From Deltaproteobacteria bacterium (GTDB lineage: Bacteria > Desulfobacterota > DSM-4660 > Desulfatiglandales > Desulfatiglandaceae), in NCBI GenBank assembly GCA_019307945.1, contig JAFDIS010000015.1:1-53733 (forward strand): a stretch of 53,733 nucleotides of DNA, written 5' to 3'. Positions 2,929 to 21,104 of the stretch are shown here, in pieces; position 1 is the first letter of the stretch; each line of letters opens with the position of its first letter. The position numbers and the translations under genes are program-made. Below the pieces are notes generated by a model. That model was not told the origin of the DNA. It saw only the letters and a list, made by a program, of their open reading frames with translations, and searched no databases.

Positions 2929-2950
2929 GCTATTTCCAAAGAGACCGAAT

Positions 2951-6048: not shown

Positions 6049-6157
6049 AGACCGCCATGAGGAAGAAGTTTGCGGGCGCAGCCGATCCCTCCCGGGGCCC
6101 TTCCGAGGATGCCATTGGGAGCCCTTCTAGGACAGGCAGCCGATCACACTGCAACCT

Positions 6158-7294
6158 GTGAAAATGAGTATACTCTACACGGCCGATTCCATCATTCCTT
6201 CCCGCGCGGCCAGCAGTATTCATGTCATGAAGATGTGTCATGCCTTGAGCCTCAATGGGCATCGCGTGACGCTCCTGGTCCCCGCCCGAAAGGGTAGCTA
6301 TGAACCCGACGTAGGGGATATATTTTCATTCTACGGGATTCCGAGGACGTTCTCCCTGGTGCGCTGTCGCTTCCCTGGGGTGGGGATCCAACCCTTTTTC
6401 GTGTTGCTCAGCCCGCTTTATGCCGGGGAGATCGGGTTCCATCTGGATCGCGTGCGCCCGGACGTGGTCTACGGGCGATCGATCCTGGGTTGCACCGTCT
6501 CCGCCTTGTGCGGATATGAAACCGTTTTTGAGCTGCACGCACCCATCTGGGAACTCAGTGTGGTCCGGCAGTTTCTCTTCAGGCTCCTGACGCGCTCACG
6601 CCATTTCAAGAAACTCGTGGTCATCAGCGGCAATCTCAAGGCCATGTTTGTGGCAAGCGGGCGCCTTCCAGCGGCAAGGATCCAGGTGGCCCACGACGGT
6701 GCAGACGAGGCTGAGAGCGTGGAGCCCGTCACGCAATGGCCCGGCCGGCCTGGCGCTCTGCAGGTGGGGTATTTCGGACACCTTTACCCCGGTAGGGGAA
6801 TCGAGACGGTGATTCGTCTGGCCGAGTCTTTTCCGGACATGGATTTTCACCTATTCGGCGGTGAAAAGGAGTCCATCGCTTACTGGGAGGAAAGGATTCG
6901 CCTCGGAAACCTCTACTTGCGGGGCTTCGTCCCGCCTGGGCAGGTCCCGGCCTATCGGTCCCGGTGCGATGTGCTTCTGGCACCCTATCAACACAACATC
7001 GGGATCTCGCGTGGGAAACGCCAGGGAGACACGCATCGCTTCATGTCCCCGTTGAAGATCTTCGAATATATGGCGAGCCGCAGGCCCATGATCGTCTCCG
7101 ATTTTCCGGTGATTCGGGAGGTGTTAAACGATGAGACGTCTTGCCTAGTAGAACCAGAGGACTTCAATGGATGGAGACGTGCATTGGAGCGCTTGCGGGA
7201 GGAGCCTGTGCGGAAAACGATAGCGGATGCCGCCTATCGAGAGTTCATGGATAAGTACCGATGGCAACGACGGGCGGAGCGGGTTATCGCTTAA
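6158..7294 (+). CDS. GT4-family glycosyltransferase
   Basis: This 378-residue protein has the GT-B fold layout of family 4 transferases, which move a sugar from a nucleotide-sugar to a lipid-linked acceptor at the inner face of the membrane. The N-terminal half has the acceptor-side loop SRAASSIHVMKMCHAL. The linker is followed by VGYFGHLYPGRGIETVI and FHLFGG. The donor-site block reads RFMSPLKIFEYMASRRPMIV with the EX7E-type region ending in VSDFPVIREVL. Start codons GTG 6158 and ATG 6164 both fit. It is a close relative of the glycosyltransferase at 10818, sharing the MSPLKIFEYMA and PVIREVL blocks. A decayed copy of its 3' end lies near 8.7 kb. The sugar donor cannot be told from the sequence. 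Confidence 0.93.
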   Translation: MKMSILYTADSIIPSRAASSIHVMKMCHALSLNGHRVTLLVPARKGSYEPDVGDIFSFYGIPRTFSLVRCRFPGVGIQPFFVLLSPLYAGEIGFHLDRVRPDVVYGRSILGCTVSALCGYETVFELHAPIWELSVVRQFLFRLLTRSRHFKKLVVISGNLKAMFVASGRLPAARIQVAHDGADEAESVEPVTQWPGRPGALQVGYFGHLYPGRGIETVIRLAESFPDMDFHLFGGEKESIAYWEERIRLGNLYLRGFVPPGQVPAYRSRCDVLLAPYQHNIGISRGKRQGDTHRFMSPLKIFEYMASRRPMIVSDFPVIREVLNDETSCLVEPEDFNGWRRALERLREEPVRKTIADAAYREFMDKYRWQRRAERVIA

Positions 7295-7678
7295 AATTTT
7301 AGGTAAAGTTTATCTAGAGCACTCATGTTGATGGAACAGTCAGGAAAACGCCTTCAAAAATTCTGCGAAAAAGGGTCTGAGGCAAAGGCGCTGGTATGGC
7401 TCTTCGGAAAGGAGGGAGGTTTGTCTGAAGCCGAAGGCAAACCCCATACAACAAGTGCCCCGATCATGGCGCGAAAAAGGACGGGAAGCGAACAGAAATC
7501 TAATCAAGCAACCCATGAATTTAGGTCCCGTGTAACAAATTTCTATAAGGATCGAGTTCCGGAACAGCATTCTGAGCTCGGTGCATAAGATGCAGAGGTT
7601 TCGACCACCGAATTTCAGGATGGGAAAACCCCATTTGGCGCAGAACTAAAACAAACGCACCCAACAAGTTGTCGATCG
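7295..7678 (+). other. Intergenic stretch without a convincing gene
   Basis: This 384-bp gap separates the glycosyltransferase from the methyltransferase. An 87-codon frame at 7325-7588 has low-complexity, basic content and no good ribosome-binding site; I do not accept it as a gene. A small hairpin (GGTTTGTC at 7418-7425 with GGCAAACC at 7436-7443, loop of 10) is visible. Sequence at 7515-7562 is similar to 9062-9118 downstream, at almost the same distance from a glycosyltransferase 3' end. It may therefore be part of an old duplication. Confidence 0.5.
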
Positions 7679-8665
7679 GTGAGGATGATGAGAAAGAATC
7701 TTACTTTCCGTTTGCTTAGGATGACGACCAAGTATGGGCGGATCAGAAAAATCTTTGATTACGATAAGGAAGAAAAGCATAATCTTGATCGTTGTCCGGG
7801 TTGTCTATCGGGGAATGATCGCCTTCATGACTTCGGAGACTTGGATAGGTATGGCTACTACGCCAAGACATCCTGGTGTGACCGGTGTGGTCTGATTTTT
7901 ATCAACCCGCGTATGGGATTAGCGGGATACAGTCGCTTCTACCAGAGCGGAGTATATCGGCAAATCATCAAATTCTACGCCGACACACCGAAAAAATTCA
8001 GTGCCGAAAAGGAGGGGATACCGCCCAGGGTTATGCCGTTCAAAGATTTATTAAGTGAGTATTTTCAACGGCATAGAAAGTTGAGCGTCCTGGATATCGG
8101 AGGGACCGGGAACATCTTCCATTTATTAAGAGAATTATTGAGCATTGACAGATACGTATGCGTCAACCCGGCGGCTAGTGAAATCGAAATCGACGAACAA
8201 GCAGGCTTCGAGGTGTTTGAAGGAGTGGTTGAGCAGTATGAAGCCACTGAGAAATTTGATTTAATATGCATGTTTGGGACCCTGAATCACCTTTTGGAGC
8301 CAAAGCTTGTTTTTAATAAAGTCTCAAAATTACTAGATCACGCTGGCATTTTTGCTTTTGATCATGTTAACCGGGTAGAAAAAATGATCAAATCTTCTCA
8401 CCCAATACAACAAATACAAATTGATCACCCGGTATATCCTGCATCGGAAACCATTTCTTATCTGGCAGGTGATTCAAGAATGAAAATTTACAAAATGGTT
8501 TCTAATATTAAGTCACAGTATTGTTATTTGCTTAAATTGGATGGTAAAATTGATGAAAGGACGTCTATTAATAAAAAAATCTTCGAAAAGCTATCGAAAA
8601 GATCAAAATCTATTTCTTTGAATTATTTAATAAAATATTTAGTTAAAAGAATGTTATTGGCATGA
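7679..8665 (+). CDS. Class I SAM-dependent methyltransferase with N-terminal zinc-ribbon-like cysteines
   Basis: The 328-residue product has an N-terminal pair of cysteine knuckles (CPGC near residue 38 and CDRCG near 67) followed by a SAM-binding domain with motif I VLDIGGTGNIFHLL near 138 and a later LICMFGTLNHLLEP block where motif IV/post-II is expected. This layout is typical of sugar or glycan methyltransferases in O-antigen clusters, which methylate a nucleotide-sugar or a glycan end. GTG 7679 and ATG 7685 or 7688 are possible starts; GTGAGG lies directly before 7685. The second half of the gene is strikingly AT-rich and Lys/Ile-rich compared with the neighbours, a sign of recent transfer. 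The acceptor is unknown. Confidence 0.85.
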   Translation: MRMMRKNLTFRLLRMTTKYGRIRKIFDYDKEEKHNLDRCPGCLSGNDRLHDFGDLDRYGYYAKTSWCDRCGLIFINPRMGLAGYSRFYQSGVYRQIIKFYADTPKKFSAEKEGIPPRVMPFKDLLSEYFQRHRKLSVLDIGGTGNIFHLLRELLSIDRYVCVNPAASEIEIDEQAGFEVFEGVVEQYEATEKFDLICMFGTLNHLLEPKLVFNKVSKLLDHAGIFAFDHVNRVEKMIKSSHPIQQIQIDHPVYPASETISYLAGDSRMKIYKMVSNIKSQYCYLLKLDGKIDERTSINKKIFEKLSKRSKSISLNYLIKYLVKRMLLA

Positions 8666-8681
8666 AATAGTTCCTGGCCCT

Positions 8682-8795
8682 AATGAGATTTTCTCCATCC
8701 TGCCTGGTACGGCCGGAGGACTTCAAGGGGTGGGAGGCCTTGGAGCGGTTGCGGGACGGGACCCTGCGGAAAAAAATTGGTGGAGGCCGTGTGTA
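8682..8795 (+). pseudogene. Decayed fragment of a GT4 glycosyltransferase 3' end
   Basis: Translating from 8698 gives SCLVRPEDFKGWEALERLR followed by DGTLRKKIG. The glycosyltransferase ending at 7294 has SCLVEPEDFNGWRRALERLR followed by EEPVRKTIA at 7138 onward. The match needs only one codon deletion and is clear at the nucleotide level. No upstream glycosyltransferase sequence is present, so this is a remnant. It places the AT-rich methyltransferase between two copies of the same glycosyltransferase end. From about 8800 to 9118 no gene is visible, only faint similarity to 7300-7562. Confidence 0.85.
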
Positions 8796-9118
8796 TACTG
8801 AATTTGAAACCCTTGCATAACCTGCCAAAAAATGTCACTGAAGAGAAGGTGGAAAAAGGTTTGAAAATTGGGAGTTGGTGAAAAGACATGCGGGTTCGGG
8901 ATATTCAGGCTGTGGTATAACATGCTGAAAAATTTGAAAAAATTATCATCCTGAGCTAGTCTTTCCCTGGATAAAATGCGATGTGGGGAGGAAGACATGG
9001 GATATAAGAAAGTCCCTCACGGGGGGCGAAGACAGGGGCGTAAGCGCCAACAATGCAGCCAATGAAATCAGGAATCTGAAAGGTTTGTGACAAATTTTGT
9101 CAAGAATCGAATCCAGGA

Positions 9119-9139
9119 GGGGCGGTTCGCGCCCGCCCC
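9119..9139. repeat. REP-like palindrome (GGGGCGG / CCGCCCC)
   Basis: A perfect 7-bp inverted repeat, GGGGCGG at 9119-9125 and CCGCCCC at 9133-9139, encloses the loop TTCGCGC. It lies about 30 bases before the membrane protein gene. It resembles the short GC-rich palindromes scattered between genes in many environmental bacterial genomes. There is no T-run after it on the plus strand, so it is a poor intrinsic terminator. Confidence 0.5.
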
Positions 9140-9170
9140 ATAAAATTCAAAAGTCTCAATTTGTGGACAT

Positions 9171-10670
9171 GTGCCGGTGGCGAAGAAGAGCGCAACAAAT
9201 CATTCCGTGAGATCTCAGAAAGGGATGCATGGGTGGTTCCCGAGTCTCTCTGACGAATCGAGGGGAAACTTTCTTCTTTGGAGTGTGCTTGTCTACGGAG
9301 CACGTTGGTTTGATGCACTTGCCTTCCAGGTCCTCGGCAAGCCCGTGGCACTCTGTTTCTTTCACCACTCCAGACGGGTTTTCTGGCTTTTTCTTCTCGC
9401 TGGCGCCTGCTGGATCGTCAAAAGAAAACGGCTCTGTACAAGCCTTTGGTTTCTTCCGGTTCCGGTCAGCTTCGTACTGGTGGAGGCATACCACGACGCC
9501 TACAACCAAGGATTCGCTTTCTGGAATGTGCTGCGGCACGTGATCGGGATCAAGATGATTTCTTCCACGCTGGCGGGGTTTGCGCTGATATGCTTTTTTG
9601 AACTCCACCGAGACGAGGTCACAGGGGACAGGTTCCGCCGGTCCCTCAGTGCTGTGATCAGCGTGAAGGCGCTGATCTTGATGGCCATAGCTGGTTTAGG
9701 GGCTGTTGATGTCCTTCATTTGGGCAATGAACATATCTACAATTACAGCCAGGCTTACGAGTCCTTGACGGTTTTATTCCTCCTGTTATTCTTTCCTCCT
9801 GAGGGAGGAAATGTTTTCCAAAGAGTCCTTTTTGTACTCAACTCCGTGAGCATCCTGTTTTTTGAATGCAGGGGAGCTTCGGTAACGTTTCTCCTTCTGT
9901 TCATGGTCTATTGCCTGGGGAGGATTTTTCGTGCCAACGGCTTTGAGAGGAATCGGACCTTGATCCCTGCGGCGACAATGGCTCTCTTTACCGCTATCCA
10001 CTGCCTTGGGGTCAACCCTATCGGTGTCACGGTGATGGAAAGAGTCCATCAGGGAGAACGCTTCTCCAGCGTCATGAAAGAACATGTGGACTGGGAGGTG
10101 AGGAAACGAACGTTTTCCCGGGTCTTCCAATTTGAGTGGAGAAGCAGTCCAGTTTCTGCCCCCGGATTCTCCGACGGGCGGGATGGGCATTCGGATGAGT
10201 CGAACCCACCGACCCTGCAAAGAGGAGAAGGAAGCAAAGAATGTGAATCGGTGGCGTTAGCCGAACGATATCTGACGCCCGCAGAGAGCAGGGCCGAAAG
10301 CGCGCGGAACCGGGTGGGCGTGATGGTAGAGGCCCTGCGTGCGTTTGTTTCCAGTCCCATTTTCGGGGTGGGGTGCGATAGGGCCTACGGGTTGAAGGTG
10401 GGAGACGACGGCCTTCATTCCTATTTGTCGCTGGTTCTTGCCGCTTTTGGGTTGTGTGGGCTAGTCCCATTGGGGGGCTTCTTCGTGCTCCAAGGGGTCA
10501 AGACGTTAAAGGAAGGGGCCGGTCTCCTGTTGACGGTTGCCAGCATTGGATATCTGCTGGCGGTGATGATGTTTAACAATGAGTTCCTTTGGTGGTACCC
10601 GCTGGTCCTCATTTGGACGATGAATTGGCAGAAGCCCCCCGAGGGACAAGTAGGATGGAGGACGATTTAG
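9171..10670 (+). CDS. O-antigen ligase/polymerase-like (Wzy/WaaL type) membrane protein
   Basis: The product (499 residues) is a multi-spanning inner-membrane protein with about ten hydrophobic segments and one large polar loop around residues 295-390. The block after the loop, RNRVGVMVEALRAF then FGVGCDRAYG and LHSYLSLVLAAFGLCGLVPL, matches the pattern of the Wzy_C/O-antigen ligase family. There a periplasmic loop with conserved Arg and His transfers or polymerises undecaprenyl-linked glycans. Only one such protein is seen here, so sequence alone cannot tell a polymerase from a ligase. The GTG at 9171 has no visible ribosome-binding site; the in-frame ATG at 9225 follows AGAAAGGG but with almost no spacing, so the start is open. 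It lies between glycosyltransferase genes. Confidence 0.83.
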   Translation: MPVAKKSATNHSVRSQKGMHGWFPSLSDESRGNFLLWSVLVYGARWFDALAFQVLGKPVALCFFHHSRRVFWLFLLAGACWIVKRKRLCTSLWFLPVPVSFVLVEAYHDAYNQGFAFWNVLRHVIGIKMISSTLAGFALICFFELHRDEVTGDRFRRSLSAVISVKALILMAIAGLGAVDVLHLGNEHIYNYSQAYESLTVLFLLLFFPPEGGNVFQRVLFVLNSVSILFFECRGASVTFLLLFMVYCLGRIFRANGFERNRTLIPAATMALFTAIHCLGVNPIGVTVMERVHQGERFSSVMKEHVDWEVRKRTFSRVFQFEWRSSPVSAPGFSDGRDGHSDESNPPTLQRGEGSKECESVALAERYLTPAESRAESARNRVGVMVEALRAFVSSPIFGVGCDRAYGLKVGDDGLHSYLSLVLAAFGLCGLVPLGGFFVLQGVKTLKEGAGLLLTVASIGYLLAVMMFNNEFLWWYPLVLIWTMNWQKPPEGQVGWRTI

Positions 10671-10817
10671 TAGGTGTGTGGGGACGGGGCCTTCGGTCAG
10701 GGCTGCGGATGATTCGCCTGGGTGCATTTTTTTACTCCGCGGGGAGGGCCTGGCGACAGGCCGAATGGGGCAACATGGAGGGCGGTACATTCCTGCAACA
10801 AAAGGGTCTGTGGATAC

Positions 10818-11987
10818 GTGTCCGGGAAAATCCATAAAATCGCTTACCTTTCCAATTCCAAGATCCCGTCCGCAGAGGCCAATGCAGTGCATGTGGTCAA
10901 GATGTGCGCAGCGTTCACTGCCTTGGGCCTGGAAGTCTCTCTTTTTGCGCGGAAGCCCCGGCTATCTTCATCGGAAATCGGAGAGTTTTACGGAGTGCAG
11001 GCTTCCTTTGAGACGGTCTATTGCCCATGGCCTCGACTCCGCGGCCTTGGTGGATGGATTTATGGAAGGGCCGTTCAAAGAGAATTGGCGCGCAGGGCGG
11101 CACCGGATTTGATCTACGCGAGGGATCTTTACAGCCTCTGGTTTGCGAGTCGCGATGGGGTTCCTTTCATATACGAGGCCCACCAGCCACCCGCCACGGT
11201 TTTTCACCGCCGCTTGCTTGGGAAGATATTGTCCCGGTCCGGATTCGTGGCTCTTGTCGTGATCTCCAGGCGCCTTGGGCAAATTCTGACAGGAATTTAT
11301 CCTGGACTTCCGAAGGAAGCTCTTGTGGTGGCACCGGATGGCGCTGACGAAGTCGACATGGGGGCCGTCGTCCTTGAAAGGTTGCTTCCCGGTCGCTCCA
11401 AGGCCTTACGGGTGGGCTATGCGGGGAGCTTCACCGCAGGCAGGGGGATCGGCCTCTTGTTGCGGGTCGCGGGATCGTTGCCAAGGGTTGATTTCCATCT
11501 GTTCGGGGGCCCCGATTACCCGGTTAAGGGCTACCAACGGCGGGCGGAGCACCATGAAAACGTCCATTTTCACGGATTCGTCCCACATGCAGTCTTGAAC
11601 GGTTACCTGGCACAGATGGATGTCCTGGTGGCACCCTATCAACCGCGTGTGACGTTGAAAGGGAATCGGGGCGATAATTCCGGATGGATGTCGCCCTTGA
11701 AAATTTTCGAGTACATGGCCGTGGGAAAAGCGATCGTTTGTTCCGATCTTCCGGTGATCCGCGAGGTCCTGTCCGACGGAGACAATGCGCTTCTGTGCCC
11801 CCCCCGGGATGAGACGGCCTGGGCGGAGGCGATTCGTTTCCTGGGCGAGAATCCGGACATCAGAAGGCGACTGGGAACCAAAGCAAGGGCCATTCACGCC
11901 GCCCGCTTCACGTGGCGGCAACGGTGCAGGAAGGTCCTGAGCGTCGCAGCGGAAAGGAGAGACAGGAGCGGAAATGGCCCCGATTAG
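10818..11987 (+). CDS. GT4-family glycosyltransferase
   Basis: I place the start at GTG 10818 because residues before it (from an ATG at 10722) look non-coding and the family fold begins at KIAYLSNSKIPSAEANAVHVVKMC. That gives 389 residues. Key blocks are LVVISRRL, VGYAGSFTAGRGIGLLL, FHLFGG, the donor-site SGWMSPLKIFEYMAVGKAIV and SDLPVIREVL. It belongs to the same subfamily as the transferase at 6158, so the two probably add sugars in the same glycan. Its end overlaps the next glycosyltransferase start by 14 bases, which indicates translational coupling. Donor and acceptor are unknown. Confidence 0.92.
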   Translation: MSGKIHKIAYLSNSKIPSAEANAVHVVKMCAAFTALGLEVSLFARKPRLSSSEIGEFYGVQASFETVYCPWPRLRGLGGWIYGRAVQRELARRAAPDLIYARDLYSLWFASRDGVPFIYEAHQPPATVFHRRLLGKILSRSGFVALVVISRRLGQILTGIYPGLPKEALVVAPDGADEVDMGAVVLERLLPGRSKALRVGYAGSFTAGRGIGLLLRVAGSLPRVDFHLFGGPDYPVKGYQRRAEHHENVHFHGFVPHAVLNGYLAQMDVLVAPYQPRVTLKGNRGDNSGWMSPLKIFEYMAVGKAIVCSDLPVIREVLSDGDNALLCPPRDETAWAEAIRFLGENPDIRRRLGTKARAIHAARFTWRQRCRKVLSVAAERRDRSGNGPD

Positions 11988-13206
11988 GATCCTCCATATC
12001 ATTACGAGCACGGATGCTGGGGGATCCGAGATGATGCTCGAAAAACTCTGCTGTCGAATGCGTCGAGACCGCTTTCAGCAGACTGTGCTTTCCTTGAAAA
12101 GAGTAGGCAGTGTCGGGCGAAGGCTTCAGGACACAGGGGTTCCGGTTCATTCGTTGGGCTTGTCCGGCGTAGTGATCAATCCAAGGGCATTCCTAGAGGC
12201 CGTGAAACTCGTGCGGTTGCTTCGGCCGCACATCATTCAGACCTGGTTGTATCACGCGGACTTTTTCGGGCTCCTCATTTCATGGGTCGTGCCAGGGGTG
12301 AGGATGGTTTGGAATATCCGTTGCGCACAGATGGAGCTGTCCCACTACCCGTTTCATACGAGGCTAACCCGCTGGTCCTGCAGGTGGCTGTCCCGGCACG
12401 CCGACGCCATACTTACCAACTCCATCGCCGCGCGGGATTATCATTTCTCGCTGGGATACACAAGATATAAATGGGTCGTGATCGAGAACGGCTTCGACCT
12501 GGATGTCTTCAGACCGGACGAATCAGCGAAATACGTGCTATCGGAGAGGTTGGGCGTCGAGGTGGATGGCCCTCTTATCGGAATGATCGCACGGTTCGAC
12601 CCGATGAAGGATCATCGGACGTTTGTTCAGACCGCCGCCAAAGTCCTCGAAAAAGAGCCGGAAGCCTACTTCCTTCTTGCCGGTAGGGGTTGTGAACCGG
12701 AAAATCGGGTTCTGCTCAGGATGCTGCCTGCGCATCTGCGGAGCCGATTCCATCTCCTGGGGGAACGGCAGGATCTGTCCCTCATCAACGCGGCCCTGGA
12801 TGTGGCTGTCTTGTGTTCGCGGGGCGAGAGCTTTCCAAACGCCGTCGGGGAGGCCATGGCCTGTGGCGTTCCGTGCGTGGTATCGGACGTGGGGGATGCG
12901 GCCCGCCTTGTGGGGGAAACAGGTATTGTCGTGCCGGCAAGGGATCCCGAGGCCTTCAGTGCCGGGATCATGCGTATCCTGGGACTGGAAAATGGGGCCA
13001 GAAGGGGTCTCGGATTGCGTGCGCGCCGAAGGATTCAGGAATGCTTCGAGATCGGAGCCATCTCCAGGCGATACGAGTTGTTCTACAGCGCGTTGATGTC
13101 ACTGGGGACTGGGCCAGGCGCTCGGGGAAACCAGGCCCTGCGGGGGAGGAATTCGAGAGAAGAGCCAGCAAGGGGGCAGCCTACTTTCGTCCTTGAAAAT
13201 CGGTAG
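11974..13206 (+). CDS. GT4-family glycosyltransferase
   Basis: The ATG at 11974 follows an AGGAG site by five bases and overlaps the end of the previous gene. The 410-residue protein has the N-terminal loop TSTDAGGSEMMLEKL, with the GG-E acceptor motif common in GT4 enzymes. The donor half follows with IARFDPMKDHRTFVQTAA, LLAGRG, FHLLGER and SRGESFPNAVGEAMACGVPCVVSDVGDA, in which the two glutamates form the EX7E-like signature. It is a different GT4 subgroup from the two others in this locus. The last 40 residues are a polar, Arg/Glu/Gly-rich tail without family features. It acts at the cytoplasmic face of the inner membrane on a lipid-linked glycan. Its sugar specificity is not visible. Confidence 0.93.
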   Translation: MAPIRILHIITSTDAGGSEMMLEKLCCRMRRDRFQQTVLSLKRVGSVGRRLQDTGVPVHSLGLSGVVINPRAFLEAVKLVRLLRPHIIQTWLYHADFFGLLISWVVPGVRMVWNIRCAQMELSHYPFHTRLTRWSCRWLSRHADAILTNSIAARDYHFSLGYTRYKWVVIENGFDLDVFRPDESAKYVLSERLGVEVDGPLIGMIARFDPMKDHRTFVQTAAKVLEKEPEAYFLLAGRGCEPENRVLLRMLPAHLRSRFHLLGERQDLSLINAALDVAVLCSRGESFPNAVGEAMACGVPCVVSDVGDAARLVGETGIVVPARDPEAFSAGIMRILGLENGARRGLGLRARRRIQECFEIGAISRRYELFYSALMSLGTGPGARGNQALRGRNSREEPARGQPTFVLENR

Positions 13207-13436
13207 GTCCCGCCCGGTTGACCTGTGACGGGAAGGTGCAATCTCCCAAGGGGCCAACGTCTGGGGGTGCCGGCTTGTGCTTTGTTGGTTAAGGACCAGA
13301 CTCCATGCCAAAATCGTACTTAAGCCGGGCGAAGACGCTTCGATGCCGGTCTTCTCTGCGGGATGGCCCGCCGGGAACGGCGCGCCGGTAGCGATGTCAA
13401 GAGGATAAGTCTTAGATCGGGAGTGGAACAGGCAAG
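13207..13436 (+). other. Intergenic stretch of 230 bp, nothing recognised
   Basis: No gene, clear promoter or terminator is visible between the glycosyltransferase and the radical SAM gene. The stretch is GC-rich, with scattered G runs. Confidence 0.5.
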
Positions 13437-14819
13437 ATGCGCAAGACGCGGTTCAAGAAAATCCTTCTTATCCAGCCGATGCATGAGAAACAGAAGAAGG
13501 CAGTCAGGACTTCAATCAATTTTCCTTGGGGCCTGGCCTCTCTTGCGACCTGTTACCGTAAGGCCGGATTCGAAGTGGAGATACTAGACGGGCAGGCCTT
13601 GCAGCTTTCTAAGGAAGAAATCCTGGCGCAAATCGCTCCACTGGATTTTGATGTCGCCGGAATCAGTGCATTTTCCACCCAGTATCCGGCTGTCAAGCTC
13701 ATTGCCGAACACATCAAGAAGCGCAGGAAAGTCCCCGTCATTACGGGGGGGGCCCTGGCCACCTATCAGGCCGAGATGGTCTTGAGGACTACCAGGGTAG
13801 ATATCTGTGTCATCGGAGAAGGTGAAATTTCCGGGATAGAGATCTTGAGATCATGGAATGACCTTGGAAAAGTCAAAGGCATTGCTTTCAAGCAGGACGG
13901 AAGGGTCTTCTTCACCCCGCCACAGGATCGGTTCATTGATTTGGACGAACTGCCACTTCCGGATTTTTGCCTCTTCGACGTAGAGAAGTATTTGAGACAG
14001 CAGAATGCGTATGCCAGAAAACAGAATCCCGGCATTCCTGCCATGGCGGTCATTACCTCCCGAGGATGCCCTTACAGTTGCAGGTTTTGCTCCAAGTCGA
14101 GCCAGCACTTCAGGAGCATGTCCCCGAAGAAGATCTATGAAATGCTCGAAGCGTTGAAACGTGAGTTCCACATAGAGGAGGTCTCTTTCGGCGACGAACT
14201 CTTTCTTTTCAGTAAGTCCAGGTTCAGAGAGTTGACGCCACTACTGGCGTCCTTGAATATTCCTTGGGGTGGGCAGGCCCGGGTCAACCTCATGGACAAA
14301 GAATTTCTCGAAATGATCAAAAGGGCGGGATGTGTCGGCCTCGGCTATGGTATCGAGTCCGGAAGCCAGAGGATCCTTGACAATATGAATAAGAAAATCA
14401 CCGTGGCCCAGATTGAGTTCGCCATGAAATACACGACGAAACTGAAGATCCCCATTAAGGTCCAATTGATCTTCGGCTACCCGGGAGAGGATGAGACCAC
14501 GGTTCAGGAAACCATCGATTTGTTCAAGAGGGTCGATCATCCGGGACGCCGTTTCAACGTGATTACCCCGATCCCCGGATCCAAGCTCTACGATGATTGT
14601 GTCAGGAAAGGCTTGATCAAAGATGAGCCCGGCTATCTCGCCGCAATCGAGAAGAGTTTCGGCGTGGGCAGGGTGCACGTGAACTTCACGCAGTGGCCGG
14701 ACGATGAAATCTATCCACGGAAACGGGAGGCGGAAGAAAAGATGATGAAGAACTACTATGGCAAGAAGATCGCAAGACGCGCGTTTTACGCAGTTTCCAA
14801 GGCACTCGGAAGGCTTTGA
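13437..14819 (+). CDS. B12-binding-domain radical SAM protein
   Basis: This 460-residue protein has two domains. Residues 1-150 form a cobalamin-binding-like Rossmann domain (KILLIQPMHE, NFPWGLASLATCYRKAGFEVEILDGQA, VDICVIGEGE). It has no DxHxxG lower-ligand motif, as is usual for class B radical SAM enzymes. Residues about 200-420 form the radical SAM barrel with the cluster motif RGCPYSCRFC (CX3CX2C), followed by FGDELFLF and GYGIESGSQRILDNMNK. Such enzymes methylate unactivated carbons or rearrange carbon skeletons. In a glycan locus the substrate may be a lipid carrier or a sugar, but this is inference. It starts at ATG 13437. A methyltransferase follows 118 bp downstream. Confidence 0.92.
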   Translation: MRKTRFKKILLIQPMHEKQKKAVRTSINFPWGLASLATCYRKAGFEVEILDGQALQLSKEEILAQIAPLDFDVAGISAFSTQYPAVKLIAEHIKKRRKVPVITGGALATYQAEMVLRTTRVDICVIGEGEISGIEILRSWNDLGKVKGIAFKQDGRVFFTPPQDRFIDLDELPLPDFCLFDVEKYLRQQNAYARKQNPGIPAMAVITSRGCPYSCRFCSKSSQHFRSMSPKKIYEMLEALKREFHIEEVSFGDELFLFSKSRFRELTPLLASLNIPWGGQARVNLMDKEFLEMIKRAGCVGLGYGIESGSQRILDNMNKKITVAQIEFAMKYTTKLKIPIKVQLIFGYPGEDETTVQETIDLFKRVDHPGRRFNVITPIPGSKLYDDCVRKGLIKDEPGYLAAIEKSFGVGRVHVNFTQWPDDEIYPRKREAEEKMMKNYYGKKIARRAFYAVSKALGRL

Positions 14820-14937
14820 CAGGGACCTGCTTGAAGCTGTCGACAGGTCGCCCTATTTTCATGGCCGGTCTAGGGTCGAAGCAAAGGTCAACAAGATGCT
14901 CAATCGGTGGCCTTAAAGAGACTTAGGGAGGCTTCCG

Positions 14938-15822
14938 TTGACCGGTCTTGAAAGGGATAGATGGGTGATCCCTTTTCGCTCTTCCGGTGAATTCCTGTCC
15001 TGGTGGTTGGAAAGCCCCCGGCTGCAGATCCCCGCACAACATACCTTTTCTCGCTACTACGGGAGCTACACGCGTCATTTCAGCGGGTACCTGGAAAGGG
15101 TCTGGTCCGCCCGTCACTGGGAATTGGAAAAGGAAATCGAGAAGTTCCTGCGACTGCGTTCCTCGGTCAGGGTGCTCGACTTGGGATGCGGAACGGGTAG
15201 CGTGGCCCTCTATGTGGCCGGAAAATATCGGCCTCACTGCCATGTCTTGGGCGTAGACATCAAGGAAGACCGGCTCGCCTGCGCCAACGAGAGAAAGGAT
15301 GTCCTGGAGGGGCTCTTGAGATCTGAAGTGACCTGCCGTTTTCTGAACGCAAACCTTTTTGAACTTGAACCCGGCCATCCCTTTGATCTCGTTTACCTGG
15401 AGGAGACCTTTCACCACCTGGAACCCAGGAGCCAAGTTTTCGGCGCATTGGGAAAGATCCTGGCCCCGGACGGAAAAGTGATCATCAGTGAGACGAACGC
15501 GGCCAATCCTCTGGTCCTGATTCGGGTTCTTGCCCAACGGGGAACCCGCAGTGTTTCCTGTATCACAGACGCCACGGGGAAAGCGGTCCCGTACGGAAAT
15601 GAGCGGGTGCTGGGCGCGGGGGCTCTGATCCGAGCATTTGAGCGGAACGGATTCAAGACCCTTTCCCTTAGGCATTTCCGGGCCTTTGGGGCCGGCAGGG
15701 GCTTTCTGGGGAAAAAGGATCGATTGCTGGAAAGGCTGGACGGCGCAGTGGGGAGGCTCGGCTGCATTTCCAGGGTGTTGACTGTCCACTACAATGCCGT
15801 CTTCGGCAGGGGGGGACTTTGA
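14938..15822 (+). CDS. Class I SAM-dependent methyltransferase
   Basis: The TTG at 14938 is preceded by GGGAGG at 14926-14931, which supports this start. The 294-residue protein carries motif I VLDLGCGTGSVALYVAG near residue 78, an acidic motif II in VLGVDIKEDRL, FDLVYLEETFHHLEP as motif IV, and GKVIISETNAANP after it, so it is a complete Rossmann-type methyltransferase. The rest is all-alpha and gives no clear substrate. Together with the B12 radical SAM protein before it and the AsnB-type amidotransferase after it, it probably belongs to decoration of the glycan or its lipid carrier. Context carries that guess. Confidence 0.88.
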   Translation: MTGLERDRWVIPFRSSGEFLSWWLESPRLQIPAQHTFSRYYGSYTRHFSGYLERVWSARHWELEKEIEKFLRLRSSVRVLDLGCGTGSVALYVAGKYRPHCHVLGVDIKEDRLACANERKDVLEGLLRSEVTCRFLNANLFELEPGHPFDLVYLEETFHHLEPRSQVFGALGKILAPDGKVIISETNAANPLVLIRVLAQRGTRSVSCITDATGKAVPYGNERVLGAGALIRAFERNGFKTLSLRHFRAFGAGRGFLGKKDRLLERLDGAVGRLGCISRVLTVHYNAVFGRGGL

Positions 15823-15851
15823 GGAGGCCACTGCTGGCTCCGCAGGAAGAA

Positions 15852-16061
15852 ATGCCAATGAATCCCCTCAAGCGGGATCTGCGAGAAACTTTTTTGAAGT
15901 CCCTCTCACTCCTGAGTTTTCGAGCGCCTGGCATCTGGCGCAAACTAGGTAGGAATTCGTTTGATTTGGGCGGGATTAGATGGAGGTTCATTTCTCGTCG
16001 CTCGATCTCCGGATCGATGCAGGATCTGGTTTTCTCGAGGGATCGAACATGTGCGGCCTAG
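15852..16061 (+). CDS. Possible small basic protein, doubtful
   Basis: An ATG at 15852 preceded by AGGAAG opens a 69-residue frame that ends inside the start of asnB (13-base overlap). The product is basic (KRDLRETFLKSLSLLSF), with no domain I recognise. It fills the otherwise empty 226-bp gap, and the overlap would allow coupling, but it may simply be leader sequence of asnB. Confidence 0.25.
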   Translation: MPMNPLKRDLRETFLKSLSLLSFRAPGIWRKLGRNSFDLGGIRWRFISRRSISGSMQDLVFSRDRTCAA

Positions 16062-17983
16062 TAGGCTTTTTCAGCCCGAAATACTACGAGGTCTTGAGCG
16101 CTGATCTTCCCCTGGCGGTAGAGGCGCTCAAACACAGGGGTCCTGATGACTCCGGTTTTTTCCTGGATTCTTCCGCAGGCGTGGGATTGGGACATAGAAG
16201 GCTTTCTGTCATTGACCCCACCCCAAAGGGCCGCCAGCCAATGGCTTCCGAGGACGCGCGCATCCAGGTAGTTTACAATGGGGAGATTTACAATTTCAGG
16301 GAGTTGCGCAGCTCGCTGGAGGCAAGAGGGCACCGTTTTCGGAGTAAAACGGACACCGAAGTGGTGTTGCGTGCTTACCAGGAATGGGGGATCGGAGCGC
16401 CGGAGCACTTCACCGGGATGTTCTCGTTTGGGATATGGGACGGCAACCGAAGGCGGCTGTTTTTGGCGAGGGACCGCCTCGGGGTCAAACCCCTTTATTA
16501 TTATTACAGAGACAATTGCATGCTGTTTGCCTCTGAACTGAAGGGGCTCATGAGTTTCCGTCACTATCGCAGGGAGGTCGATATCCAGGCCCTGGCGCAG
16601 TACCTGCAATACCAATATGTCCCCTCTCCATGGACCATTTTTCGGTACACCCGAAAACTGGAGCCGGGCCATTGCCTGTTGTTGAAAGGCGGAAATCTGA
16701 AGGTTTGGCAATACTGGGATCTTTCAGTGGGCAAGTGGGCTGATGGTGGCTCCAATGAACGAAGTGAGTATGATTTCCTGGAAGAGCTAGACGAGGTTTT
16801 GTCGAGATCTGTCTCTGGGATGTTGGTGAGTGATGTGCCGCTGGGTGCCCTCCTGAGTGGGGGTATCGACTCATCCGTTATTGTTTCGCTCATGTGCAGG
16901 GCGAGCCACAAAACTGTGAAAACCTATACTGTGGGATTTCGGGACCAGGAGTATGACGAAGCGCCACACGCTTCAAAGGTCGCCAACTACTTGGGGACCG
17001 ATCATCGAGCGCTCTATGTTTCATCGAAAAAGGCCTTGGACATCATCCCCGAGATCCCAGATATCTATGATGAACCATTTGCTGACAGCTCGGCCATACC
17101 CACCTGCCTGCTCAGCAGCCTTGCGCGGTCGAGCGTGACGGTCGCACTTTCGGGTGACGGGGGTGACGAGCTCTTCGGAGGGTACCTGCGTTATTGGGCA
17201 ACCGCGGCCATGGCGGGTTATTGCGAGCGGCTGCCCCGACTTTTCCGCCTAGCAGTGGCCAGGCTTATGCGAAGGATCCCGGCGAAGAAGGCCGAAGAGG
17301 TCAATTTCCTTGCACGAAAGATTCTGCCTCCATCGCTGCATTTCAAGAACTTCGGTGACAAGTGGGAAAAGGCAATCCGCCAGTTGGGAAGAGAGGGGCT
17401 GGAATCTCTTTATCGGGCCACCATCACCCTCTGGGATGCGGATGAGATCATGGGGATTTTGGGGCGCAAACCAGCCTCGGGTCGTTTCGAAAGGCTCTTT
17501 AGCGAGACGGAGACCCTTCCGGTGATTTCCAGGCTCATGAGGGTGGATCAACTCACCTACCTGCCCGACGCCATGCTCACCAAGGTGGATCGAGCGAGCA
17601 TGGCCTGTGGTTTGGAGGTCCGGGTGCCGCTTCTGGATCACCGTGTCGTGGAATTCGCTGCCGGGATCCCTGAAGACCTGAAGGTCCGGGACGGCCGGGG
17701 GAAATACCTTCTCAGAAAGCTCCTTGCGCGGTTCGTGCCCCCGAAGCTCTTCGACCGGACGAAAATGGGTTTCGCCCTCCCGTTAGAGCCGTGGCTTCGA
17801 ACAGATCTCAAGCCTCTTCTTAGGGACTACCTTTCAGCCGAACGTCTGGAGAAAGAGGGGCTGTTCGATACCAGGCCGGTGCACAGGATGTTGCGGGAGC
17901 ATTTTTCCGGGCGGGCCAACCACCACCATCGCCTTTGGGCCCTCCTGGTCTGGGAGATGTGGCGGGAGCGGTGGTTGACATGA
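16049..17983 (+). CDS. asnB: Asparagine synthetase (glutamine-hydrolysing) type amidotransferase
   Basis: The start is the ATG at 16049, seven bases after a GAGGGAT site, because it exposes the catalytic Cys as residue 2 (MCGLVGFF). The product is 644 residues. The N-terminal Ntn glutaminase domain includes the NGEIYNF block. The C-terminal ATP-pyrophosphatase domain has the P-loop LLSGGIDSSV near residue 270 and GDGGDELFGGY. The enzyme transfers ammonia from glutamine to an adenylated carboxylate. The canonical product is asparagine, but members of this length inside O-antigen or exopolysaccharide clusters often amidate a uronic acid on the glycan. This location favours the second role. No key residue is missing. 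Confidence 0.93.
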   Translation: MCGLVGFFSPKYYEVLSADLPLAVEALKHRGPDDSGFFLDSSAGVGLGHRRLSVIDPTPKGRQPMASEDARIQVVYNGEIYNFRELRSSLEARGHRFRSKTDTEVVLRAYQEWGIGAPEHFTGMFSFGIWDGNRRRLFLARDRLGVKPLYYYYRDNCMLFASELKGLMSFRHYRREVDIQALAQYLQYQYVPSPWTIFRYTRKLEPGHCLLLKGGNLKVWQYWDLSVGKWADGGSNERSEYDFLEELDEVLSRSVSGMLVSDVPLGALLSGGIDSSVIVSLMCRASHKTVKTYTVGFRDQEYDEAPHASKVANYLGTDHRALYVSSKKALDIIPEIPDIYDEPFADSSAIPTCLLSSLARSSVTVALSGDGGDELFGGYLRYWATAAMAGYCERLPRLFRLAVARLMRRIPAKKAEEVNFLARKILPPSLHFKNFGDKWEKAIRQLGREGLESLYRATITLWDADEIMGILGRKPASGRFERLFSETETLPVISRLMRVDQLTYLPDAMLTKVDRASMACGLEVRVPLLDHRVVEFAAGIPEDLKVRDGRGKYLLRKLLARFVPPKLFDRTKMGFALPLEPWLRTDLKPLLRDYLSAERLEKEGLFDTRPVHRMLREHFSGRANHHHRLWALLVWEMWRERWLT

Positions 17984-18093: not shown

Positions 18094-19269
18094 GTGAGAA
18101 TCACGTTACACAAATACATCTTCCAGGAAATCTGGCCCACCTTTCTGGCGAGCCTCTTCATTTCCGTCTTCATCATCGTGGCCACCAAGATGCTCTCCAT
18201 CATGGAATTGCTTGTGAACCAGGGGGGGGAACCAATTCACGTGGCGAGCATGATCCTTTTTTTGCTGCCCGACATCCTGTCATTCGCCTTTCCGGCGGCC
18301 AGCCTCATGGCGGTGGTCATTGCTTTCTTGAGGCTATCGGCAGACAATGAACTGATCGCCCTCAAGGCCTGCGGGATCAGTTTGTACCAGTTGCTTCCCA
18401 CGGTGGTGATCCTTTCTCTTGCAGGGTTCCTGGTCTCTCTGATGGTGAGTGTTGTGGCCATACCCTGGGGGAACCGTTCATTCCGGGACTTGGTCTTCCA
18501 GATGGCCGAATCCAAGACCGACCTGGGGATAAAAGAGCGCGTATTCTGTGAGCCCTTTGATGACGTGGTCTTTTATGTGGGTGGATTTTCGGGGCGCGAG
18601 AGGGTGATGAGGGACGTTTTCGTGGTGGATCGCAGGGATGAGACCGTGTCCAACACGATCGTTGCCGGCGAAGGCAGGGTGTTCGTAAACCCTGAAGCGC
18701 GCCTCATCACGATCCGTTTCAGGGACGGGACTATTTTTGTGGTGGAAAAGGGGCTTGCTTCCGCCCGGACCATCCGGTTCAAGACATACGATCTGAATAT
18801 CGGTTTGAAAGACATCATGGCCGCGCTTGCTTCCCGGAAACGAAAACCAAAGGAACTGACCGTCTCCGAACTGGTGGAGCGGCTGGAGAAGCTTCGGCCG
18901 GAGGAAGAAAAATATAACGATGTCCTCATAGAACTCCTGGGGAAATTCACCTTGCCCGTGGGTGTTTTTCTTATGGGCATCATCGGCGTGCCCCTGGGGG
19001 CCCAGTTGAAGACCCAGGGCCGCACGGCGGGCATTGGTGTGAGCCTGGCGGTTTTTCTCCTCTACTACATCTGCCTGGCCGCGACAAAAAGCCTTTGTGA
19101 GAGTGGTGTGCTGTCCCCGAAGATCGGCCTTTGGATGCCCGACCTGATCCTCGCTTCGGCATGCGTGTATCTGTTCAGGCGTGTGGCCAGGGAACAAGGG
19201 ATCATCCCCGGGTCATTCTTCAAGGGCGGCCCATGGGGGCTTCCCCCTTCCGCGGGGGCCAAGGCATGA
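18094..19269 (+). CDS. lptF: LptF/LptG-family permease of the LPS transporter
   Basis: The product (391 residues) has the family layout: membrane segments near residues 15-35, 55-80 and 95-125, a periplasmic beta-jellyroll of about 140 residues (AGEGRVFVNPEARLITIRF), and three C-terminal segments starting at LPVGVFLMGIIGVPLGAQ. The N-terminal motif RITLHKYIFQEIWPTFL is typical. With LptB and LptC it extracts LPS from the inner membrane and sends it across the periplasm. It resembles LptF more than LptG, but the two are hard to separate by eye, and no second permease lies next to it. The start is GTG 18094. It overlaps the following WecA-type gene by four bases (ATGA). Confidence 0.9.
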   Translation: MRITLHKYIFQEIWPTFLASLFISVFIIVATKMLSIMELLVNQGGEPIHVASMILFLLPDILSFAFPAASLMAVVIAFLRLSADNELIALKACGISLYQLLPTVVILSLAGFLVSLMVSVVAIPWGNRSFRDLVFQMAESKTDLGIKERVFCEPFDDVVFYVGGFSGRERVMRDVFVVDRRDETVSNTIVAGEGRVFVNPEARLITIRFRDGTIFVVEKGLASARTIRFKTYDLNIGLKDIMAALASRKRKPKELTVSELVERLEKLRPEEEKYNDVLIELLGKFTLPVGVFLMGIIGVPLGAQLKTQGRTAGIGVSLAVFLLYYICLAATKSLCESGVLSPKIGLWMPDLILASACVYLFRRVAREQGIIPGSFFKGGPWGLPPSAGAKA

Positions 19270-21104
19270 AAAACTCCTTCCTTTTCCTTTATCTGGGACC
19301 CCTGGGGGCAAGTTTCCTCCTCTGCCTGTTGCTGACCCCGCTTGTACGCCGCTATGCCCGGGCCACGGGACGGGTAGCGGTGCCCAGGGAGGATCGCTGG
19401 CACCGGAAGGAGACGGCTCTGCTGGGCGGTGTCGCCATATTTGTTTCAATGGCGTTTGTATGGATCGTGGGGACGCTCGCGGGCGGCTGGACCGCCCTGG
19501 GCAGACCCTACCTGGTGGTGATGGCGTGCGCTTCGGCCGTGTTCTTGCTGGGTCTGGTTGACGACCTGGTCAACATGGACCCCCAGCACAAGCTTGCGGG
19601 CCAGATCGTCATCGCCAGCGTGCTGCTCTTCTTCGGATATCGCCTGCCCTGGACCCAGTCCAACACGGTAAACCTTTTTTTGTCCATCCTTTGGGTCGTG
19701 GGCATCACAAACGCCTTCAATCTCCTGGACAACATGGACGGCTTGGCCGCGGGGATCGCCATGATCGCGGGCGTGTTCCTGCTCCTCTTTCATTTCCTGA
19801 ACCCCGGACAAAGCGGTTTCTCGCCCGGAAAGCTCCTCATTCTCTCTTCCTACGTGGGATCCCTGCTGGGCTTCCTGGTCTACAATTTCAATCCTGCGAG
19901 CATATTCATGGGAGACGGGGGGAGTCTTTTTATCGGGTTCGTGCTGGCCTGCCTAACCATCATGCAGGGCCCCGCTCAAGCGCCTCCCAAAGGCTTTGTC
20001 CACCTGCTTTCTATCATTGCCATCCCTATCCTGATCCTTTTCATTCCAATCCTGGACACGGGGTTCGTGAGTTTCATGAGAAAACTGTTCCGGCGGCCTA
20101 TTTCCCAGGGGGGGCGGGATCACTCCTCCCACCGGCTGGTGGCCATCGGCCTGTCCGAAAAACGGGCGGTCCTGGTCCTGTGGGGCTTTGCGGCGGTGAG
20201 CGGGCTGATGGCCCTGGCAATGGGGTATCTGGCAAGCGGAGTCAGCATTGTACTGGTGGTGTGCTATCTCCTTTTCGTGCTTTTTTTCTGGGTCTACCTG
20301 GGAAAGGTCAAGGTGTATAGCGGGGAATCGGTCCTGAGGGGCGGCGGTACCGGGCGGATCACACCCCTGCTCATCGAGGTGACCTACAGGCGACGACTAC
20401 TTGAAGTCCTCCTGGACCTGGTCCTGATAACAGTGGCCTACTATACGGCCTATCTGCTTCGATTCGAGGGTCAACTGGGCGGAAATTTTGATTTTTTCCT
20501 GAAATCCCTCCCCGTGGTGATCGCCTGCCAGATTTTTTGTATGTATATAATGGGCATCTATCGGGGCGTGTGGGAGAGTGCGGGTGTCTCGGATCTGTGG
20601 GGATACGTCAAGGCGGTTACCGCCGGGACGGTACTTGCCATCCTGCTCATCCTTTTCCTTTACCGGTTCGTGAGTTTTTCCAGGGCGGTCTTCGTGATCC
20701 ATTGGTTTTTTCTCCTGATCCTGATCGCCCTTTCGCGTTTTTCCTTCCGTTTCATAGACGAGGGTCTACAGCGCGGGAGGCGGGGCGGTAGGAGAACCCT
20801 GATTTACGGCGCGGGGATAGGGGGACAGATGGCCCAGAGGGAATTGGACACGAACCGAAACCTGGACCTTCGGCTTGTGGGGTTCATCGATGACAACCGT
20901 GATCTTCACGGAAGAAAAGTCAAGGGATATCCGGTCCTTGGTGGAGGAGAACAACTGGAAGGCCTTTTGAAGAAGCACGGTATCGAGGAGGTCATCATCT
21001 CTTTTCGCGATCACGGTCCGGAAAAGAAAAAGGAACTGGAGACCCTTTTGCAGTCAAAAGGGATCGAGGTTCGGGTCAGGCTCATGCGCCTGGTCATCAG
21101 TTGA
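19266..21104 (+). CDS. WecA/MraY-type sugar-1-phosphate transferase fused to the N-terminal part of a CapD-like protein
   Basis: The start is ATG 19266, overlapping the lptF stop as ATGA, giving 612 residues. Residues 1-370 form a polyprenyl-phosphate sugar-1-phosphate transferase with about ten membrane segments and the family motifs GLVDDLVNMDP near 97, NAFNLLDNMDGLAAG near 150, FNPASIFMGDGGSLF near 214, and a His-rich RDHSSHRL loop near 284. It would start glycan synthesis on undecaprenyl phosphate. Residues 372-612 look like the front of CapD/WbpM-type proteins: about four membrane segments (LLEVLLDLVLITVAYYTAY), then a Rossmann domain with RTLIYGAGIGGQMAQREL and LRLVGFIDDN. The protein stops there, without the catalytic dehydratase (SDR) domain of CapD. 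The second half may therefore sense or bind a nucleotide rather than make a sugar. Confidence 0.9.
   Translation: MKNSFLFLYLGPLGASFLLCLLLTPLVRRYARATGRVAVPREDRWHRKETALLGGVAIFVSMAFVWIVGTLAGGWTALGRPYLVVMACASAVFLLGLVDDLVNMDPQHKLAGQIVIASVLLFFGYRLPWTQSNTVNLFLSILWVVGITNAFNLLDNMDGLAAGIAMIAGVFLLLFHFLNPGQSGFSPGKLLILSSYVGSLLGFLVYNFNPASIFMGDGGSLFIGFVLACLTIMQGPAQAPPKGFVHLLSIIAIPILILFIPILDTGFVSFMRKLFRRPISQGGRDHSSHRLVAIGLSEKRAVLVLWGFAAVSGLMALAMGYLASGVSIVLVVCYLLFVLFFWVYLGKVKVYSGESVLRGGGTGRITPLLIEVTYRRRLLEVLLDLVLITVAYYTAYLLRFEGQLGGNFDFFLKSLPVVIACQIFCMYIMGIYRGVWESAGVSDLWGYVKAVTAGTVLAILLILFLYRFVSFSRAVFVIHWFFLLILIALSRFSFRFIDEGLQRGRRGGRRTLIYGAGIGGQMAQRELDTNRNLDLRLVGFIDDNRDLHGRKVKGYPVLGGGEQLEGLLKKHGIEEVIISFRDHGPEKKKELETLLQSKGIEVRVRLMRLVIS

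Follow-up and report, generated by a model that had tools for sequence, protein, structure and literature searches.

The window analysed here is the whole stretch of 53,733 nucleotides from a member of the Desulfobacterota (Deltaproteobacteria bacterium, assembly GCA_019307945.1, contig JAFDIS010000015.1, positions 1 to 53,733, forward strand). At 19266-21104 on the + strand lies a single open frame, free of internal stops, whose 612-residue translation joins a polytopic phosphoglycosyl transferase (polyPGT) to a module composed of a four-helix membrane bundle (4TMH) and a Rossmann-like PF13727 domain. The gene is a real, intact fusion. Its parts, in window coordinates, are:

19266..21104, +, whole fusion gene: 612 residues and a TGA stop, polyPGT followed by the 4TMH and the PF13727 domain
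19266..20306, +, polyPGT half: residues 1-347, MraY/WecA fold, 11 predicted transmembrane helices
19560..19565, +, acidic pair Asp99-Asp100, invariant in 59 fusions
19710..19742, +, NAFNLLDNMDG (149-159), counterpart of NAFNMVDGIDG of E. coli WecA, with N149, D155 and D158
19905..19925, +, FMGDGGS (214-220), the Asp217 motif, from the alignment with WecA and 59 homologues
20109..20135, +, GGRDHSSHR (282-290), His motif of a cytoplasmic loop, at the site of WecA HIHH
20307..20360, +, linker: residues 348-365, of low model confidence and the least conserved part
20361..20771, +, four-helix membrane bundle: residues 366-502, with cytoplasmic ends, resembling the 4TMH of WbaP
20781..21101, +, Rossmann-like cytoplasmic PF13727 domain: residues 506-612, stopping at the last strand, without the beta-hairpin region of WbaP
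20808..20825, +, GAGIGG (515-520), predicted GxGxxG nucleotide-binding loop; G515, G517 and G520 invariant in 59 fusions
20889..20894, +, Asp542-Asp543, where the second strand ends: the expected ribose-binding acid, unchanged in all 59 fusions

Two halves of one protein

In a Pfam scan of all 612 residues, only two families scored above cut-off: PF00953 at residues 83-233 (111 bits, cut-off 27) and PF13727 at residues 430-580 (55.3 bits, cut-off 25). PF02397, the catalytic domain of the monotopic phosphoglycosyl transferases (mono-PGTs), is absent from the protein by Pfam. A whole-protein AlphaFold2 model was built from 59 homologue sequences, with a mean predicted local distance difference test score (pLDDT) of 82.

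The assignment of the N-terminal half to the polyPGTs of the PF00953 superfamily is well supported by score, motifs and modelled fold, and so, as a prediction, is catalysis. Motifs were compared with those of E. coli K-12 WecA. The original prediction had placed the complete set of WecA/MraY motifs within residues 1-370. The alignment bore out the motifs. The PGT itself ends near residue 347 and is followed by the linker at about 348-365. All of the motifs are invariant or nearly invariant across the 59 homologues, and D99, D100, D155, D158, D217, H286 and H289 are among the invariant columns. Residues 1-323 of the model have the fold of MraY and human DPAGT1 (VIA Z 28-30 over about 284-307 residues). 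The N-terminus is predicted to be periplasmic by the positive-inside rule, and the model helices together with this rule put the motif loops, the linker and the C-terminal domain all on the cytoplasmic side. With NCBIfam only a partial match was obtained, to the WecA model TIGR02380 (88.9 bits, cut-off 326). Because 89 bits falls so far below that cut-off, and because DHSSHR replaces HIHH, the half is not, strictly speaking, a WecA. It nevertheless shares its fold, its membrane topology and the full set of catalytic motifs with WecA/TagO/WbpL and MraY. Poly-PGTs have been tabulated as 'PGT only' (PMC10942596); unlike these enzymes, the polyPGT described here carries an accessory module.

When residues 366-612 were modelled alone (pLDDT 84), the result was a Rossmann-like domain of five strands preceded by four long helices. 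The top Foldseek match of this half was Salmonella WbaP (8t53, E 6e-8), spanning both bundle and domain, and in the whole-protein model residues 372-609 match the same two parts of WbaP. Superposition on WbaP gave an overall root-mean-square deviation of 12-14 Å; the order and kind of the parts agree, but the two do not fit as one rigid body. NCBIfam returned partial matches to the first half of the TIGR03025, WcaJ and WbaP models. Thus, the membrane part and Rossmann domain of CapD/WbpM that had been recognised in this half are indeed present, but the half is as much the front of a WbaP-type mono-PGT as that of a CapD. With a hidden Markov model of the half, CapD front halves scored higher than mono-PGTs, the best values being 233 and 117 bits respectively. 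As predicted, the protein ends where a dehydratase domain would begin: in the alignment it stops just before the 'TVPG..ELI.G.V...IR.V..EDLLGR' linker or hairpin of CapD/WbaP.

The Rossmann part matched 3nkl at Z 14, Rex repressors at Z 11-12.5 and several solved coenzyme A (CoA)-bound proteins at middling Z. A GxGxxG loop together with an acid on strand 2 is the usual Rossmann fingerprint for gripping the ribose of a nucleotide. In the model the GxGxxG loop lies after strand 1. Loop and Asp-Asp pair, invariant in the fusions, are nearly so in CapD as well (21-23 of 23), and the ligand site therefore appears to have been kept.

Soundness, spread and origin of the fusion

Dozens of full-length homologues, at 38-66% identity and including complete isolate chromosomes (Desulfosarcina alkanivorans PL12 and Desulfonema magnum), rule out chance, misassembly or a pseudogene. 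A frameshifted longer fusion was also ruled out: those homologues contain neither a stop nor a shift, none of the 13 PF02719 matches in the genome is on the contig of the fusion, and none lies inside the fusion protein. No dehydratase or mono-PGT domain was found downstream in any frame, and the next gene encodes an acyl-CoA dehydrogenase. Neither catalytic residues in the C-terminal half nor a continuation past 21104 came to light.

The order PF00953 then PF13727 was found widely in other proteins. By our own counts from the match tables, for which one-frame matches covering nearly the whole profile were taken, the full-length fusion is present in about 65 of 394 genomes sampled throughout the Desulfobacterota, in 52 of 297 genomes of the Acidobacteriota (the phylum of acidobacterial locus L069), in 3/141 of the Myxococcota (the phylum of myxococcal locus L108) and in all five genomes (5/5) of one small further phylum. 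The stop point is the same across the homologues in these phyla. Among near homologues the identity is 61% for the PGT, about 64% for the membrane bundle, 52% for the Rossmann domain and 49% for the linker; the C-terminal half is thus kept about as well as the N-terminal half.

Some irregular copies were seen. In strain NaphS2 (L058:9977-11819) the homologue is split within the C-terminal module into frames of 500 and 125 residues. Recoding of an in-frame TAG was considered for four acidobacterial homologues and rejected, as two have an ordinary terminal stop and two an isolated nonsense codon or truncation.

To place the module, a tree was computed from 39 polyPGT fusions, 23 CapD-type proteins and four large mono-PGTs, with long branches removed. 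A single branch (support 99/97) separates the polyPGT-linked modules from those of CapD and the mono-PGTs, and the tree of the full set agrees. On these trees the polyPGT-linked modules are an old third lineage of their own beside CapD/WbpM and WbaP, not nested in CapD. Whether or not the long branches are included, the tree rejects the idea that a CapD fusion recently lost its dehydratase domain. The gene had been taken for a CapD front half bereft of its catalytic domain; that description fails, the module being common to three enzyme classes and old in its own right.

In the PGT tree the main fusion family forms one clade (97/94), but the approximately unbiased test (p 0.0155) disfavours a common origin for every PGT half. 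A second PGT subclade, with a DRDHIHHRLL-type or similar loop, carries modules of the same lineage (L146:1439-3313, L183:162-2099, L204 and L205), which suggests transfer of the module between PGT lineages. A single joining event for all polyPGT fusions is disfavoured. The modules make up one lineage and the PGT halves more than one clade, so that transfer of the module between PGT lineages, or losses, must be assumed. With one module lineage on separate PGT subclades, the module appears to be portable.

Two larger proteins extend the picture. L137:1794-4712 (-) encodes 973 residues in which a WbpL-type PGT is followed by a complete CapD/WbpM dehydratase (PF00953-PF13727-PF02719). Alone among the modules linked to a polyPGT, that of L137 falls inside CapD, and the PGT part clusters with the WbpL-type gene of L138; L137 is therefore an independent fusion. 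A WbpL-type PGT gene adjoins a CapD gene in both L138 and L189. In L188:430-3558 (-), a single frame of 1043 residues, PGT and module are followed by a GT1 glycosyltransferase. The acidic motifs of this PGT are changed (DD to SD, GD to GE), and the copy may be catalytically abnormal.

Gene surroundings

Two features lie upstream of the fusion in the window:

18094..19269, +, lptF, lipopolysaccharide (LPS) export permease (NCBIfam equivalog match), whose stop overlaps the fusion start
1759..17983, +, surface-polysaccharide cluster, by the profile matches of its genes

The ATG of the fusion overlaps the TGA of lptF as ATGA, and because of this overlap the two genes are likely to be co-translated. 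An LptF/LptG-type gene is found upstream in 22 of 30 close loci. The cluster contains an ATP-binding cassette exporter, three GT1 glycosyltransferases, methyltransferases, a B12 radical S-adenosylmethionine (SAM) protein and an AsnB-type amidotransferase, together with an O-antigen-ligase-like membrane protein whose match is below the Pfam cut-off. In a mainly acidobacterial set, 19 of 20 loci have a GT1 gene close to the fusion, in most cases immediately upstream of it. In several separate clades the gene directly upstream encodes an extended short-chain dehydrogenase/reductase (SDR; L062:2177-3142, L147:2481-3464 and L148:1978-3054). For the two of these that were tested, from L062 and L148, the closest solved structures are uridine diphosphate (UDP)-glucuronate decarboxylases, and the recurrent SDR hints at the sugar pathway served. 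These surroundings fit an initiator of LPS or another surface glycan but do not demonstrate regulation.

Two minor features were noted in the same region. The B12-binding radical SAM protein of the cluster, at 13437-14819 of the window, has only partial matches to HpnJ/BchE-like families. A remnant of an IS5-family transposase lies at the edge of the cluster (window 787-1278).

Proposed function and alternatives

The same cytoplasmic-domain module, 4TMH and PF13727, is known from WbaP and other large mono-PGTs (PF13727 + PF02397; 8t53, E. coli WcaJ, M. xanthus EpsZ), where, as is predicted for the fusion, its partner is a phosphoglycosyl transferase initiating glycan synthesis on undecaprenyl phosphate (Und-P). 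In those enzymes the catalytic domain is PF02397 and follows the module, whereas here a polyPGT of unrelated fold precedes it. In WbaP the module reportedly makes most of the dimer contact, uridine mono-, di- and triphosphate (UMP, UDP, UTP) stabilise its isolated domain, and UMP acts as an inhibitor of the enzyme, with a half-maximal concentration (IC50) of 4.1 uM (PMC10942596). The beta-hairpin exchanged in the WbaP dimer has no counterpart in the fusion, whose sequence stops before that region; the EpsZ domain is also without a hairpin (PMC12802240). For EpsZ, modelling puts the activating response regulator EpsW on the PF13727 domain, promoting the dimer (PMC12802240). The other known kind of host is CapD/WbpM/PglF (PF13727 + PF02719), whose front half is the same as the C-terminal half of the fusion; unlike them, the fusion has a PGT in front, no dehydratase domain, and a module outside the CapD lineage. 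The catalytic region of WbpM is reported to be fully functional without its N-terminal part (PMC8987622), which fits a role of the module in control or targeting, not in catalysis.

The presence of one module in mono-PGTs and PglF-like dehydratases has been called 'puzzling', as the enzymes are functionally unrelated (Dodge et al., PMC10942596). A widespread, conserved polyPGT that carries it is a third, structurally unrelated host enzyme, and we argue from this that the module is no part of any one chemistry and is instead a common regulator or organiser. All three hosts use UDP-sugars at the entry of a glycan pathway. What they have in common is a position and not a chemistry, and control by nucleotide sensing and/or dimerisation is therefore favoured.

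We consider it probable, with considerable reserve, that the protein is an initiating polyPGT controlled by its C-terminal module, likely through sensing of a uridine nucleotide and/or dimerisation. The fusion would then be the inner-membrane enzyme that initiates a surface polysaccharide, O-antigen-like to judge by the neighbouring genes. Its N-terminal half would transfer an N-acetylhexosamine-type sugar-1-phosphate from a UDP-sugar to Und-P. The C-terminal half would contribute four membrane helices as well as a Rossmann-like domain that faces the cytoplasm, as the active site does, and it would control the enzyme with no chemistry of its own. The module would most likely bind a nucleotide with a free ribose, our best guess being UMP/UDP or a UDP-sugar, and would help to set the dimer state. 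Initiation could thereby be slowed when the by-product UMP builds up or when Und-P must be spared. The activity, substrate, ligand, direction of regulation and dimerisation of the fusion are what we infer here, the uridine ligand by analogy with WbaP. The earlier suggestion that the module senses a signal is retained as far as its nucleotide-type Rossmann fold goes, with a uridine nucleotide as the ligand favoured by the WbaP data (PMC10942596). The acyl signal proposed with it is dropped: it depended solely on the Pfam name 'CoA-binding' of PF13727, a label that the WbaP work disputes in pointing to uridine nucleotides. The redox signal that was also proposed stays a live though less likely alternative, because NAD(H) domains of the Rex type match nearly as well.

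Several observations weigh against control by such a module. Among the structures that match the Rossmann part most closely are Rex-family sensors of nicotinamide adenine dinucleotide, NAD(H). The fusions lack the C-terminal beta-hairpin, which accounts for most of the dimer contact in WbaP, and would need other contacts for a dimer. MraY and other polyPGTs form dimers although they have no such module (PMC10942596). The neighbouring genes are partly common by descent and carry little information on regulation.

No description of a PF00953+PF13727 polyPGT was found in the searchable literature, with subscription papers and InterPro architecture listings lying outside the search; the original claim of novelty agrees with this. 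The fusion is thus a real, conserved and apparently undescribed architecture with a plausible control module. The findings suggest that bacterial surface-sugar synthesis is throttled at several of its entry points by repeated use of a single portable control module. More broadly, but only tentatively, 4TMH and PF13727 may form a general portable brake, responsive to uridine nucleotides or UDP-sugars, on three enzymes of unrelated mechanism: mono-PGTs, UDP-sugar dehydratases and, at the opposite end of the chain, polyPGTs. If so, WecA-type polyPGTs would be open to allosteric regulation in cis, and the function common to the hosts of the module would be control of the use of Und-P and UDP-sugars. 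The fusion also lends itself to testing the module, here carried by an enzyme whose fold is known (MraY/DPAGT1) and whose assays and inhibitors are well studied.

Two other explanations are in our judgement unlikely, one about as much as the other. In the first, the Rossmann domain serves to sense redox or energy state, binding NAD(H) as in Rex and coupling initiation to the NADH/NAD state. The fingerprint classically linked with NAD (GxGxxG following strand 1, an acid where strand 2 ends) is invariant, the Rex chains among the closest matches are NAD(H)-bound, and many carriers of the fusion are anaerobic sulfate reducers. The fingerprint is, however, general to ribose binding, and the likeness to Rex is at the level of the fold (about 16-22% identity), the fusion having no DNA-binding domain. 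The Acidobacteriota also carry the family, which weakens a link specific to anaerobes, and the sole close relative that has been tested, the WbaP domain, responded to uridine nucleotides (PMC10942596).

In the second, bundle and domain only hold a dimer together or dock the next glycosyltransferase, and ligand binding is incidental. Most dimer contacts of WbaP are in the PF13727 domain (PMC10942596), and the recurrent GT1 neighbour and the GT1 fused directly behind the module in L188 would be in keeping with docking. A scaffold has no need for invariant glycines and aspartates in a ligand loop, and the hairpin of the WbaP type is missing. Regulation through the module accounts for a larger share of our expectation.

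It is very improbable that the gene is a relic, the product of a chance fusion of a WecA gene to a CapD in which the dehydratase domain was lost, with the C-terminal half as a passenger. That such fusions arise is indicated by the PGT/CapD neighbours of L138 and L189 and the full fusion of L137, but only L137 nests in CapD while the other polyPGT-linked modules stand apart from CapD and the large mono-PGTs, and in several phyla the module has been retained, ligand motif included, and ends at the same place. Least credible of all is a split enzyme, in which the module would work in trans with a soluble dehydratase lacking its own front half and a UDP-4-keto sugar would be handed to the PGT: one stand-alone full-length PF02719 protein does exist in the genome (C73:1861-2712, 310 bits), but it is a soluble PseB/FnlA-like protein (best NCBIfam model PseB, 264 bits, under the cut-off of 408), it lies on another contig among genes that we read from their sequences as NeuB/NeuA/NeuC-like, and soluble PseB/FlaA1-type enzymes normally have no front half. 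The detached dehydratase once envisaged was accordingly not recovered in this protein, whose locus we read as one for a sialic-acid-type sugar.

The only other PF13727 match in the genome belongs to a WbaP-type mono-PGT in C35, which is also its only PF02397 protein. The other WecA-like protein of the genome (L141:3249-4913, C182) is longer by about 200 residues, which are rich in membrane helices and match no Pfam family. Its gene adjoins an exosortase-like gene, and the frame downstream opens with a long stretch of DRP/NRP repeats.

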